Source of the DNA: Lutraria lutraria
Taxonomy: Eukaryota > Mollusca > Bivalvia > Venerida > Mactridae
Direction of reading: 5' to 3'
Assembly: GCA_964023205.1 (NCBI GenBank)
Contig: OZ026843.1
Location: 729,029 to 793,028, forward strand
DNA length: 64,000 bases
Shown: piece after piece, positions 36,178 to 47,722 of the stretch
Layout: each line of letters starts with the position of its first letter
Position numbering within the stretch: position 1 is the stretch's first letter
The notes under the pieces: model-generated
What the model was told of the DNA's origin: nothing
Seen by the model: only the letters and a program-made list of their open reading frames with translations
Databases searched by the model: none
Made by a program: the position numbers and the translations under genes

Positions 36178-39100
36178 CAGGGATGCTATATTACAGGGAT
36201 ACGCAACGGACGGAAACTGGCTGAAAAACAGTGCCTAGGGATATTCGCGCGAGAGCGCATGCGCACGCATTTACCGTTAATGTCGGTATCTAGCAGATAA
36301 AATATGGGTCAAATATTCACTTCAATCGGCTTAAATAAATGCTGTTTTTGCATAGAGTTTTTTATATATTGATCTTAAAGTGTTACATATTTTACAGATG
36401 TTGTAATTTTGTTTCTAAATATTAGTGGTTCTAAAGATTTCCAAGTTTTTGTGACCGTTCGAAAATAAAACTGACGTGATAATTTGACCGAAATGGTCGC
36501 ACAATAGAAAATGTCAGTTTTTTGCGACAGCTTTAGTACATGAAGATATTCTTAATTTCACGATATTTTCCCGTGGTTGAAGTGTGACATACTTCTATAT
36601 TGGCTGCATAACTATATTTTCATGTTTTATTTTGTTATAATACATAATTTCGCGATCGATTATGACCCAGTTTTTACAATTTACAAAATGGAGGCCTGAT
36701 CTGACGAGGAAAATATTGCACTTTTTGCGACATCATTTGTTTGTGAAGATATACTCTATATCAAAATTTTCTTCCATAGTTTGACACTTACACACGTCGA
36801 TATTGGCGGCATGATAATATTTTCATGCTTACTTTTGTAAAAGAACACAATTTCGCGATTGATTATGACCCCATTTTTACGATTCAATTCAATGGCGGCC
36901 TGATCTGACTAGGAAAATATTTCACTTTTTGCAACACCATTTGTATGTGAAGGTATACTAAACATGAAAATTTTCTTCCATATTTTGAGACTGACATACG
37001 TCTGTATTGACGGCATAACAATAATTGCAAGAATTATTTTGCTGTAGTACGTACCTTATTTCGCTCTCGATAATGATCCATTTTTATCGGTGCATAGCAA
37101 AACGAAAAAGCATCATATAAGCTCTAAATTACATAGATTTTAGCGCAAACCAGAAACGGTGTACCCCGAATATATTATTTGGTATGCACATATTTTCACA
37201 CCTATTATTCGAAATCGTCAATTCATAACAATGGCTGATTGAGAATCAACTGGCATATGACAAACAATATGTAGATCAATTCATACACGAAGCGTGTCAA
37301 CAGTTTAATTTTACAGATTGAGTAAAGTCAAACAGTTTATTCATGACTCGTAGAACATTATGTACATACATAATATGAAAACATAGAATACGTGTATACA
37401 TGCCTTTCCATACAGAAATATAAGATACAGATCAATTCTTTAAATATCTACTACATTTAGTCAAAGACTTGAAATAATGACGGTATATTACGTACATTAT
37501 AATGCTAACAGAATTCCTTGCAGTTATTCTATATCTGTTTATAATGAAGAGAGCAATGAAGAAACATTACTTTAATCTTATTCAATATTTATCTGGTAAT
37601 GTACATCTTTAATGATGGGTTAGTTGTAAGGTCGACCAAATTATGGTTTTATGCTAATCGCCACGAATATTTCACTGTGATCTCAGGTACTTGGCTTGTT
37701 TTTGTATTTGCTAAAATAATATCAGTTTTTCAACAATGATTAATTACTGTCATGATCAATATGATGTGAATATGTTGGTTTAAATTATGACATTAGATTT
37801 TATTGGTGGAACCCTGTTGTTTCCAATTAATGGTCACACACCGTGACCTAGTGCATTCAAATGACATATGCGCAGCTGTGAAAACAATGTAGATTTATGA
37901 AACATAGACTACCCCATACTGTTTTCCATCCGGATGTATTGATTGTTTCCTTGTAATCAGTAAAGATCGTCACCGAGATTATGATTATGACTATACGAGG
38001 GCATATCGTACGCCATTTTGGCGGAAGATTAAAAGTTACAGATTAAGTCTTTGGCTAATAAAATTGATACGCTATAATAGAGACATACATTATGAAAAAC
38101 AAAGATCAATAACAAGATAAAGTTATACGAATCAAAATTACAAATAACAAGCTTTTCACCATAAAATGTATAACATACGTACATTTCTTTCGCACAAAAC
38201 ATTCATGATATATAGCATTTCTTTAAATAAAAGTTTAACCATGAACATTTCTTCTTCAGCTGATAAATAGAAAAAAGTTCCACGATACAAAATTAAATTT
38301 GGTCTTGAGTTGATAAATCGAACAAAACTTTCATGATATAAATATTTGTTATACAAATTTAATTAAAATGTTTAGCATTCGATCGTACATTTTTTCATAA
38401 TATAAAAGTTGTTTCTCGAATTTAAGTCAAATTTTAGCATTCTATCGTACATTTGTTGTCATGATATAACTTTTCTTTCACAAGTTTATTCCGTGAAAAT
38501 TTCGCCTTCAGCTGATAATTCGAAAACAAGTTTCACGACATAAAATTCAATTGTACAAAACTTTCATAATGTGATATACTACATGTAATTCAATTTTTCA
38601 TACATAAACGTTTCTTTTAAAAATTAAATTTAAAATAAAAAAAAATACAGTGAAAATCAAACAAAACTTTCATAATGTAAACATTTCTTTCCTACAAAAC
38701 TTACATAATATAAGCATTTCTTTCTCAAATTTAATTTAGAATTTTTTTTAGAAAAAAATAAGTTGTTAAAGTTAATAACAAACAAATAAAAACTACGAGG
38801 AACTTGAGTCGATCATGGACCACTAATGTTACTTTTTGTCAATTATCGATTCTTTGTGTTATTTTCAATGTAATTTCGGTAGTTTTGATCCTTTGCTTTC
38901 ATTAACTAGCCTAGGCACTGATAATCGATAGTTGATCAGTGGATGATAAGCGGTTGCACATCCCTGTAATATAGCATCCTATACACCCTTTCAATTAAGC
39001 GGTAATTTGAATTGTCGCCCCTGAATGACGTCATACGAGGATACCGGTGGATAAGACAATTTTATCAACAGGAAATCAATATCGTCAAAAACTATGACAA

Positions 39101-39498
39101 CTAAAGGTATTTTACTACGAAAACGGTGATAATTAATATTTAGATATAGGACAAGGTTGTTGTAATGAACAATTATTCCGTTTATATGTTTTATATGAAA
39201 TATTCGAGCCTCGGATTGATTTTGTCATATATTTTCGCGATCTCAATTGTATGTTAGTTTTTAACGTATTTGTTTCGCACGGACTGCAAACTCGAGTCCG
39301 TTTATATGATACAGTAAAATTATGGATCGGGAAACAAGCAATGCTTAAAATATGAATTTCTTTCCACTAGCATGCGTGTAAATTTTGTTTGTTTGTTAGT
39401 TTCAATTCGTTAAAATGTTCCTGTAATGTTGCCAATGTTTAGATTTATCAAGTGAATGCTTTGCGTACATGTATATTCTTTTCATATTTATTTTACAG

Positions 39499-44900: not shown

Positions 44901-47722
44901 CGCTTATCATCCACTGATCAAGTATAGATTATCAGTGCCTAGGCTAGTTAATGAAAGCAAAGGTATCAAAACTACCGAAATTACCATGAAAATGACACAA
45001 AGAATCGATAATTGACAAAAAGTAACATTTATGATCGACTCAAGTTCCTCGTAGTTTTTATTTGTTTGTTGTTAATTTTCACAACTTATTTTTCTAAATT
45101 AAATTTGAGAAAGAAATGCTATATTATGCAAATTTTGTAGGAAAGAAATGTTTACATTATGAACGTTTTGTTCGATTTATGAGCTCAAGCAGTGATGCTA
45201 CACCTGGCTCAAGACGAAATTAATTTTCACTGCTATTTTTTTTATTTAAATTGAATTTTTAAAAGAAACGATTATATCATGAAAATATGTATGAAAAACT
45301 GAAATACATGTAGTATATTACATTATGAAAGTTTTGTACAATTAAATTTTATATCGTGAAACTTGTTTTCGAATTATCAGCTGAAGGCGAAATTTTCACG
45401 GAATAAACTTGTGAAAGAAAAGTTATATCATGACAACAAATGTACGATAGAATGCTAAAATTTGACTTTAAATTCGTGAAAGAAACGTTTATATTATGAA
45501 AAAATGTACGATCGAATGCTAAACATTTTAATTAAATTAAATTTGTATAACAAATATTTATATCATGAAAGTTTTGTTCGATTTATCAACTCAAGACCAA
45601 ATTTAATTTTGTATCGTGGAACGTTTTTCTATTTATCAGCTGAAGAAGAAATGTTCATGGTTAAACTTTTATTTAAAGAAATGCTATATATCATGAATGT
45701 TTTGTGCGAAAGAAATGTACGTATGTTATACATTTTATGGTGAAAAGTTTGTTATTTGTAATTTTGATTCGTATAACTTTATCTTGTTATTAATCTTTGT
45801 TTTTCATAATGTATGTCTCTATTATAGCGTATCAATTTTATTAGCCAAAGACTTAATCTGTAACTTTTAATCTTCCGCCAAAATGGCGTACGATATGCCC
45901 TCGTATAGTCATAATCATAATCTCGGTGACGATCTTTACTGATTACAAGGAAGCAATCAATAAATCCGGATGGAAAACAGTATGGGGTAGTCTATGTTTC
46001 ATAAATCTACATTGTTTTCACAGCTGCGCATATGTCATTTGAATGCATTAGGTCACGGTGTGTGACCATTAATTGGAAACAACAGGGTTCCACCAATAAA
46101 ATCTAATGTCATAATTTAAACCAACATATTCACATCATATTGATCATGACAGTAATTAATAATTGTTGAAAAACTGATATTATTTTAGCAAATACAAAAA
46201 CAAGTCAAGTACCTGAGATCACAGTGAAATATTCGTGGCGATTGCTAGCATAAAACCATAATTTGGTCGACCTTTCAACTAACCCATCATTAAAGATGTA
46301 CATTACCAGATAAATATTGAATAAGATTAAAGTAATGTTTCTTCATTGCTCTCTTCATTATAAACAGATATAGAATAACTGCAAGGAATTCTGTTAGCAT
46401 TATAATGTACGTAATATACCGTCATTATTTCAAGTCTTTGACTAAATGTAGTAGATATTTAAAGAATTGATCTGTATCTTATATTTCTGTATGGAAAGGC
46501 ATGTATACACGTATTCTATGTTTTCATATTATGTATGTACATAATGTTCTACGAGTCATGAATAAACTGTTTGACTTTACTCAATCAGTAAAATTAAACT
46601 GTTGACACGCTTCGTGTATGAATTGATGTACATATATTGTTTGTCACATGCCAGTTGATTATCAATCAGCCATTGTTATGAATTGACGATTTCGAATAAT
46701 AGGTGTGAAAATATGTGCATACCAAATAATATATTCGGGTTACACCGTTTCTGGTTTGCGCTAAAATCTATGTAATTTAGTGCTTATATGATGCTTTTTC
46801 GTTTTGCTATGCACCGATAAAAATGGATCATTATCGAGAGCGAAATAAGGTACTACAGCAAAATAATTCTTGAAATTATTGTTATGCCGTCAATACAGAC
46901 GTATGTCAGTCTCAAAATATGGAAGAAAATGTTCATGTTTAGTATACCTTCACATACAAATGGTGTTGCAAAAAGTGAAATATTTTCCTCGTCAGATCAG
47001 GCCGCCATTGAATTGAATCGTAAAAATGGGGTCATAATCAATCGCGAAATTGTGTTCTTTTACTAAAGTAAGCATGAAAATATTATCATGCCGCCAATAT
47101 CGACGTGTATAAGTGTCAAACTATGGAAGAAAATTTTGATATAGAGTATATCTTCACAAACAAATGATGTCGCAAATAGTGCAATATTTTCCTCGTCAGA
47201 TCAGGCCTCCATTTTGTAAATTGTAAAAACTGGGTCATAATCGATCGCTAAATTATGTATTATAACAAAATAAAACATGAAAATATAGATATGCAGCCAA
47301 TAAAGAAGTATGTCACACTTCAACCACGGCAAAATATCGTGAAATTAAGAATATCTTCATGTACTAAAGCTGTCGCAAAAAACTGACATTTTCTATAGTG
47401 CGACCATTTCGGTCAAATTATCACGTTAGTTTTATTTTCGAACGGTCACAAAAACTTGGAAATCTTTAGAACCACTAATATTTAGAAACAAAATTACAAC
47501 ATCTGTAAAATATTTGACACTTTAAGATCAATATATAAAAAACTCTATGCAAAAACAGCATTTATTTAAGCCGTTTGAAGAGAATATTTGACCCATATTT
47601 TATCTGCTAGATACCGACATTAACGGTAAATGCGTGCGCATGCGCTCTCGCGCGAATATCCCTAGGCACTGTTTTTCAGCCAGTTTCCGTCCGTTGCGTA
47701 TCCCTGTAATATAGCATCCCTG
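41954..47722 (-). repeat. Right arm of the giant palindrome
   Basis: 5769 bp, reverse complement of the left arm. Differences include a 10-bp deletion at the inner terminal-motif copy (near 44878) and shuffled sequence around 45180-45240. Confidence 0.9.
43357..43528. mobile_element. TACAGTAAAACCTCTCC MITE in right arm
   Basis: Mirror image of 40357-40510, so it was present before the palindrome arms separated. Confidence 0.75.

Follow-up and report, generated by a model that had tools for sequence, protein, structure and literature searches.

The closest described structure is copy 112 of Galileo, a foldback-like transposon of the P superfamily in D. willistoni. This copy is 9021 bp long, with terminal inverted repeats (TIRs) of 4246 and 4680 bp, and the duplications of the Galileo family are 7 or 8 bp long, with the consensus GTATTAC (PMC4168063, sections consulted). 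The 11.5 kb palindrome described here is similar to copy 112, as given in those sections, in its near-whole-element inverted repeat, in the absence of a transposase segment and in its identical flanking duplications. Its outer transposon family, family A, makes 7-bp duplications, as does Galileo. Copy 112 is thus a precedent for the size of the TIRs, which an earlier note on this DNA had called exceptional. The likeness is one of structure and duplication length. In the same sections, Galileo has long TIRs of one family with embedded transposable element fragments, whereas the palindrome consists of two nested families and has arms of different subfamilies.

The maize hAT system Ac/Ds is alike at the tip: the 5' tip of family A, CAGGGATG, agrees with C/TAGGGATGAAA, the 5' end of Ac (PMC3260210, in part). 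It differs in its duplications, which are 8 bp long, against 7 bp in family A. Alternative transposition and composite insertions of Ac/Ds join transposon termini, but the alternative reactions described in the sections consulted use one 5' and one 3' terminus (PMC3744419, PMC4270019), whereas the palindrome shows two 5' ends. For Hermes, another hAT element, a transposon with two left ends (LE/LE) was built and tested, and little mobilisation was kept (PMC10368747, in part); the like-ended palindrome, in contrast, sits between flush duplications. Tetris and Tm1 are foldback transposons too, but they are presented as single families in the sections consulted. No nested palindrome of two families was found in the surveyed sections of the published literature.

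Structure of the palindrome

The window is a 64,000-nt stretch of Lutraria lutraria DNA. Self-comparison, proposed earlier as a dot-plot, was run by BLAST and gave one inverted match (36169-47731). The arms, at 36178-41925 (5748 nt) and 41954-47722 (5769 nt) around a 28-nt centre, agree with the two inverted arms of ~5.75 kb that had been noticed, as does the exact 8-bp outer duplication, flush with both outer ends (Table 1). The first 80 nt are identical at the two outer ends, and the longest identical run between the arms is 311 nt. Overall, substitutions separate the arms at 119 of 5676 aligned sites (2.1%), and there are 30 indels. The term "near-perfect" here stands for ~98% identity, and neither arm is simply a copy of the other. 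Divergence was equal in the outer part (family A, 57/2768 sites) and the inner part (family B, 62/2908 sites; P = 0.85), and it was not perfectly uniform along the arms (dispersion 1.64, P = 0.0135).

Table 1 Features of the palindrome and its surroundings, in window coordinates.
Feature	Position	Strand	Description
Left outer direct repeat	36170..36177	+	ACTTCAGT; same 8 bp as 47723-47730
A1, family A, subfamily 1	36178..38979	+	5' end outward; 3' end (..GCATCC, last CTG absent) inward
A 5' tip	36178..36245	+	CAGGGATGCTATATTACAGGGATACGC; AGGGAT at offsets 2, 18 and 60
TATA adjoining left outer end of B pair	38980..38983	+	Between A1 3' end and BX
BX, family B, subfamily X	38984..41925	+	CACCC end outward; other end 75 nt short at centre
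CTT microhomology, B:B join	41923..41925	.	True fusion centre, by comparison with intact solo B ends
BY, family B, probable subfamily Y lineage	41926..44879	-	Inverted; 44 nt of end gone at centre
TATA adjoining right outer end of B pair	44880..44883	+	Between BY and A2 3' end
A2, family A, other subfamily	44884..47722	-	Inverted, 5' end outward; 9 nt of 3' tip gone at join
Right outer direct repeat	47723..47730	+	ACTTCAGT
G6PC exon 1	47819..47878	+	MDVLHHYGVNIVKYLQEEFE; assigned from reading frame, splice donor and phase

Beyond the repeats, mirror symmetry of the flanks was absent (local score 23; highest score of 100 shuffles, 42), so the palindrome is not a read foldback continuing into the flanks. 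The palindrome is confirmed as real. An assembly artefact, with unrelated repeats mis-joined inside high-copy families, is very improbable. Both families are abundant, with copies mostly 95-99% alike, and the palindrome is known here from assembled sequence alone; however, the flush outer repeats and the non-mirrored flanks speak against mis-joining, as does an assembly of 71 contigs (728.5 Mb). A further argument is that in this assembly, which is the window's own and was the genome searched, the truncated microhomology joins occur in no other scored copy: only the palindrome locus spans the B:B centre (best 40 of 126 candidates), and only its two arms match the A-B junction (best 40 of 342 candidates).

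Foldback elements have long TIRs that fill most of the element, and they move as one unit in several copies. Here the inverted repeat fills the element, but no second copy with the same centre was seen among the best 40 of 126 candidates. The palindrome may still have moved as one unit, as the earlier note had it, because the 8-bp repeats are flush with the two 5' ends, but the second palindrome that would have borne this out did not appear among those candidates. Its terminal sequence matched nothing in viral and prokaryote contigs, and the left arm matched nothing in plasmids, as expected for animal DNA.

Outer elements

Each arm consists of two transposon families, with left and right copies from different subfamilies; the earlier proposal of one unit with very long TIRs is not supported. 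Family A is a high-copy family of ~2.8 kb. With the first 1 kb of A1 as query, the best 40 of 224 candidates were all 98-100% matches (own locus included); 30 of these places were retrieved as loci, one being the palindrome, and the other 10 are known from the match list only.

An exact 7-bp duplication lies outside CAGGGATG...GCATCCCTG in all 19 solo copies with both ends readable. These are the 20 fetched 3' regions minus L036 (no 3' end), L020 (5' flank L045 unread) and L019 (L044; altered 5' tip, though a 7-bp ATTTGTA is visible), plus L004 and L017. Among the A copies read, an 8-bp duplication was present at the palindrome only. The 7-bp duplications argue against an ordinary hAT element, and the assignment to hAT from the 8 bp is not supported. 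Family A lacks the 8-bp duplication of hAT elements, and has a short TIR starting with CA, of the CAGGG type (CAGGGATGC at both tips of solo copies), as they do; its duplication length also agrees with the P superfamily (Galileo/1360 type), where it is 7 or 8 bp. Apart from two centre-crossing frames, the arms have no ORFs of at least 80 aa. For one of these frames, 100 aa gave no Pfam match, and following up a centre-crossing ORF likewise yielded nothing.

An Ac-like 3' end, TAGG(G)ATG, at 38973-38981 was ruled out: the solo 3' ends read GCATCCCTG in 21 of 21 readable copies, so the A tip there is a truncation.

The two A copies of the palindrome carry different subfamily states. A1 has 614C, 850G, GTAC at 870-873 and 987C, each common to 5-6 of the copies L002-L006 and L008, and its 3' section is likewise nearest to this group. 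A2 shares 474A and 546A with L011-L013, and an AT insertion at 1089 with L011-L013, L022, L025 and L026; its 3' section is 0.5% from L009/L014/L015/L027 versus 4.5% from A1. In A 1-450, the solo copies closest to one arm are also those closest to the other, and in A 1100-2010 the arm-arm distance is about equal to the distance from many solo copies. The left-arm 733T is the state of the other subfamily group. Tree branches in A were 1.13% for the right arm and 0.57% for the left. L028 was left out of the site table, and L001 (the palindrome) and L007 were left out of the first A tree.

Inner elements and centre

Family B, ~3 kb long, is a separate high-copy family in the same assembly. Being a transposon family, it is not captured host flank with a gene fragment, a candidate that was ruled out. 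Its spliced frame had a single match, to a 52-aa unnamed ENA protein (P0001, E 0.056). A 1519-1888 and B 4897-5322 show a diverged similarity above shuffles, and the other A/B stretches tested for mutual similarity gave no signal.

BX is 0.52-0.60% from the X copies L054-L057, which were chosen by the best match of their last 100 nt to the left arm. Of 51 diagnostic columns, 48 show the X state in BX and 45 the Y state in BY; 18 of the 51 are a single indel. In the tree, BY groups with L053 and L058-L061 (Y side) on a long branch (1.49%, left arm 0.28%). In plain distance, the closest sequence to the right-arm B is that of the left arm (2.13%), followed by X copies (2.14-2.24%) and Y copies (2.33-2.51%). 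The diagnostic columns and the tree, against plain distance, suggest that BY belongs to Y. The reading covered 10 of the 39 other B places at the centre, and four further copies (L064-L067) on the A side only.

The 28-nt centre lies at 41926-41953, as described before, but these 28 nt are not a spacer, since the right-arm B element continues through them; the physical join is at CTT. Intact solo B ends extend 44 nt past the right-arm start in 5 of 6 copies measured, with a variant base there in the sixth, and 74-75 nt past the left-arm end in 6 of 6, with CTT in common. The outer junctions of the B pair read GCATCC-TATA/CACCC (left) and GGGTG/TATA-TTACAGGG (right). In solo B, TA adjoins both ends in 6 of 8 fetched copies and TATA both sides in 4 of 8. 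The TATA may be partly B's own end, as it adjoins GACCC in 6 of 8 copies, even where the other side is TATT.

Origin of the two arms

The left A and B carry sites of other subfamilies than the right A and B. No private substitution was shared by both arms, neither in A (0 of 2756 sites, against 20 solo copies) nor in B (0 of 2877 sites, against 9 solo copies). Private to one arm were 12 (left) and 14 (right) substitutions in A, and 7 (left) and 33 (right) in B, an inequality perhaps due to thin sampling of Y. At 55 of 121 substitution differences between the arms, solo copies show both states, and roughly this fraction was therefore probably inherited from the parents. If the arms mutate alike, the few private substitutions of the left arm would cap the changes after fusion, and assembly of the palindrome is likely younger than the 2.1% suggests.

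With A and B equally diverged, a single inverted duplication of one arm seemed to fit, but it was overturned by the subfamily test. The two arms do not look like products of one, although later conversion could hide a shared origin. In such an account, template switching would have duplicated an A-B composite in inverted orientation, with arms identical at first, and ectopic gene conversion would later have overwritten one of them. We consider this unlikely. It accounts for the common A-B order, for a right junction that equals the left minus a 10-nt deletion between TATA repeats, and for the plain distance that puts the right-arm B nearest to the left arm, and donor copies are many (224 A and 342 A-B-junction candidates). 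However, subfamily states differ over nearly all of B and, in A, at both 450-1100 and 2570-2806, which would take two long conversions or more, and the lack of a private substitution common to the arms also speaks against it.

Construction in place is less probable still. Here, an old A2 on the minus strand would have received BY at a TA in its 3' tip, and repair of a break at BY, with the opposite 5' tip and ectopic copies of A and B as templates, would have produced the left arm. The sequence of the right junction, TGTAA-TA-TACACCC, is what B inserting cleanly into an A 3' tip would leave, the right-arm branches are longer in both families, and the 3' stub and the 5' end have CAGGGATGCTA in common, which could prime repair. 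Against this, private counts are near-equal over the whole of A, the 8-bp flush repeat would have to come from a 7-bp one by a 1-base insertion, and the template would have to jump from A1 to the exact end of B.

On balance, and by a modest preference, we favour insertion of a B-B dimer at the centre of an A-A dimer, giving an outer inverted A pair of two subfamilies around an inner inverted B pair of two subfamilies. The four elements, the subfamily differences between arms, the truncated B ends joined by CTT, the TATA flanks and the flush ACTTCAGT are observed. End joining of two separately excised (or broken) A copies through their 3' tips (..GCATCC/TATATTACAGGG..) would have given a dimer in which both outer ends were 5' ends, and a transposase would have inserted this dimer upstream of G6PC via these like ends. 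A B dimer, formed likewise, would later have inserted at TATA in the A-A join; one such insertion yields the same A-B order in both arms.

Several observations weigh against this nesting of dimers. In B, these are the plain distance of the right-arm copy, the preselection of the X copies, the unequal private changes and the possible origin of TATA from B itself. In A, they are the distances in the two stretches named above, the left-arm 733T, and an outer repeat of 8 bp though the family makes 7. Two left ends of Hermes move very poorly (PMC10368747, in part), and neither a transposase nor a donor locus was found. Stand-alone dimers were missing too: the exact pattern CCCTGTAATATA N{0,30} TATATTACAGGG had 0 matches for A-A, where a larger gap or a mismatch would escape, and no B-B dimer with the same centre was among the best 40 of 126 candidates. 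A stricter form, in which excised copies of each of the two unrelated families were joined head-to-head extrachromosomally and reinserted by transposase via their identical ends, one in the other's centre, is doubtful.

Neighbourhood and implications

The position next to G6PC was correctly recognised in the earlier note. Three later exon pieces jointly match glucose-6-phosphatase catalytic subunit 1 (E 1e-28), and the position of exon 1 leaves 97 nt between its ATG and the palindrome. The description as a hairpin-prone, transposon-derived palindrome with flush direct repeats adjoining this gene is supported. So close to the start codon (97 bp), an 11.5-kb insert that forms hairpins might alter the expression of G6PC or be a source of hairpin RNA.

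A long palindrome is generally taken to be one arm and its copy, and the difference between the arms to reflect its age. Judging from this locus, both assumptions can be wrong: its arms belong to different subfamilies, and a large part of the 2.1% is probably older than the palindrome itself. The palindrome also offers a natural setting in which to ask if two like ends of a transposon can insert together. If extrachromosomal joining and like-ended reinsertion did take place, such "dimer transposition" would make giant palindromes from two different parents, against the rule that an element with two left ends is immobile.

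Structure and surroundings of the palindrome

The palindrome described in the earlier note was present at its reported place (36178-47722), with a left arm of 5748 nt and a right arm of 5769 nt. The arms differed at 119 of 5676 aligned sites, plus 30 indels, and the outermost 80 nt were the same at both ends. The 8-bp ACTTCAGT repeats claimed outside it matched exactly. Beyond these repeats, the left and right flanks lacked mirror symmetry. Folded as a single strand, the central 681 nt formed one long hairpin of -338 kcal/mol (average of 20 shuffles, -60).

The neighbouring gene is G6PC, as the earlier note had it: glucose-6-phosphatase was matched by three exon pieces taken together, right of the palindrome. 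From frame, donor and phase, we place exon 1 at 47819-47878, which would put the ATG 97 nt away from the element.

Other features of the window
Feature	Position	Strand	Remarks
Second long-TIR element	29038-35414		inverted repeats 29053-29724 / 34721-35399, 96%
tRNA-like repeat, two direct copies	36001-36149 and 48019-48159		near palindrome, one each side
43-bp-unit array, ~107 copies	49884-54522		4.6 kb, between G6PC exons
ORF, ATP synthase subunit C match	61536-61787	-	Pfam E 5.8e-12

The second long-TIR element has an exact 9-bp GAACCAGAC at 29038 and 35406, and its tips start with G. Judging from the 9-bp repeat, we take it to be Mutator-like. One of its ORFs was GDSL-lipase-like (E 3.5e-6) and another weakly PHD-like (E 0.03), both under the Pfam cut-offs; a further ORF looked Ulp1-like by eye. 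The two tRNA-like copies aligned to each other, with an Rfam tRNA match at 36027-36098 (31.8 bits), and ARAGORN found no tRNA at these repeats. They are probably tRNA-derived SINEs.

The outer family A

The terminal sequence of the palindrome recurs inverted ~2.8 kb into each arm, with zero mismatches in the left arm (38960-38979) and 10 nt missing in the right. The first kilobase of A was searched against the assembly from which the window comes (728.5 Mb in 71 contigs; window at C12:729029-793028). The 40 places scored of 224 candidates, the palindrome's own left arm included, all had 98-100% identity.

Solo copies, outside the palindrome, were described from these loci plus 20 fetched 3' regions. 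They measured ~2.8-2.9 kb in 18 of 20 cases (the others ~2.0 and ~2.5 kb), had unlike 5' (..GGGATACGC) and 3' (..GGGATGTGC) ends, and were flanked by exact 7-bp duplications in all 19 readable cases, approximately nTnnnAn by eye. A by itself is therefore an ordinary element, not a palindrome; in the palindrome, two A 5' ends lie on the outside. The proposed hAT assignment rested on CAGGG and an 8-bp duplication; the second does not hold for solo A. No transposase was found, and P-type elements with 7 bp would be as good a guess. The repeats appear molluscan in kind.

One A copy (L008; its fetched 3' region is L036) had a ~320-bp segment in tandem repeat and long A-runs, with no A 3' end within the 801 nt fetched. 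Another (L010, ~3650) was interrupted at ~2142 by an oppositely oriented 3'-type A tip, so A elements are able to nest in one another.

Because the outer repeats are flush with the palindrome ends, we argue for insertion through two A 5' ends. The chance of an 8-bp match is ~1 in 65,000 per site. At 8 bp, the outer repeat exceeds the 7 bp of family A by one base; by analogy, a single 8-bp case would not be impossible, since Galileo makes both 7- and 8-bp duplications (PMC4168063). Speculatively, the extra base may come from two like ends forming an altered synapse. Against such an insertion, little mobilisation remained in Hermes when both ends were left ends (PMC10368747).

The inner family B

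A query crossing the centre was fully matched at the palindrome only; the other 39 of 40 places scored (126 candidates) matched the 28-nt 'spacer' (41926-41953) plus one arm. In solo B, a terminal repeat follows the 'spacer', GACCCTTTCATTTAACCG in most copies read. The opposite end, CACCCTTTCAATTAAGCGG in the left arm, adjoins A within the palindrome. Solo B was 2957-3026 nt long (n=6). The palindrome's copies are shortened at the centre, the left by 75 nt and the right by 44 nt, and meet at CTT.

The A-B junction was matched across by the palindrome's two arms only, among 40 places scored (342 candidates). The other 38 matches started at query 70-82, inside B or at its edge; at L064, starting at 70, the stretch of flank printed beside the match held no A. 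A and B are separate families, despite a diverged stretch in common, in the same orientation and above shuffles (arm positions 1519-1888 and 4897-5322).

Left-arm B holds a gene-like frame (39094-39766) that is broken and has an intron-like gap; the frame's sole match was an unnamed 52-aa ENA protein (P0001), and the match includes part of the intron. Near both B ends is TGACGTCAnACGAGGATA, with a perfect CRE-like TGACGTCA inside, at 39026, 41934 and 44826; the insert upstream of G6PC thus has it three times.

Parentage of the arms

Sequence comparison with solo copies suggests that the left and right arms descend from different parents. Left-arm A has 614C, 850G, a GTAC insertion and 987C, each common to five or six of the copies L002-L006 and L008 (614C also in L010 and L029). 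Right-arm A shares 474A and 546A with L011-L013, and an AT insertion with these and L022, L025 and L026. A contrary site is left-arm 733T, common to nine copies outside that arm's own group. Over A 2570-2806 the arms were 4.5% apart; each was closer to solo copies, at 1.7% for the left and 0.5% for the right, and the closest copies differed between the arms. A 1-450 was not discriminating, with L002 and L007 nearest to both arms. The arms were 0.80% apart over 1100-1600 and 1.22% over 1600-2010, similar to the distance from many solo copies.

For B, four copies were fetched for each of two groups suggested by the centre-crossing matches: X, with the last 100 nt like the left arm, and Y, the others. 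At 51 diagnostic columns (18 being one indel), the left arm was X at 48 and the right arm Y at 45. Left-arm B was 0.52-0.60% from the four X copies. In the tree, right-arm B fell on the Y side, at the end of a long branch; its plain distances were 2.13% to the left arm, 2.14-2.24% to X and 2.33-2.51% to Y.

Substitutions that the two arms share but no solo copy has numbered 0 at 2756 A sites (20 solo copies) and 0 at 2877 B sites (9 solo copies). Both states occurred among solo copies at 55 of 121 arm-differing sites (33 A, 22 B). The rest were private to one arm: in A, 12 to the left arm and 14 to the right, and in B, 7 to the left and 33 to the right.

Proposed assembly of the palindrome

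The A-B joins read GCATCC-TATA/CACCC on the left and GGGTG/TATA-TTACAGGG on the right. Of 8 solo B copies, 6 had TA beside both ends, and 4 were flanked by TATA on each side. When the B-B block plus one TATA is taken out, A1 (..TAATATAGCATCC, left) is joined to A2 (TATATTACAGGG.., right), two A 3' tips face to face, 3 and 9 nt short. An exact-pattern search of the assembly, allowing up to 30 nt between the two A 3' tips, found 0 further joins of this 3'-3' kind, so such an A dimer is rare or unique. With the tips facing in this way, a single B dimer inserting at the A 3'-3' join would yield both A-B junctions. For this reason, we prefer nested dimers over two independent A-B junctions or conversion of most of one arm.
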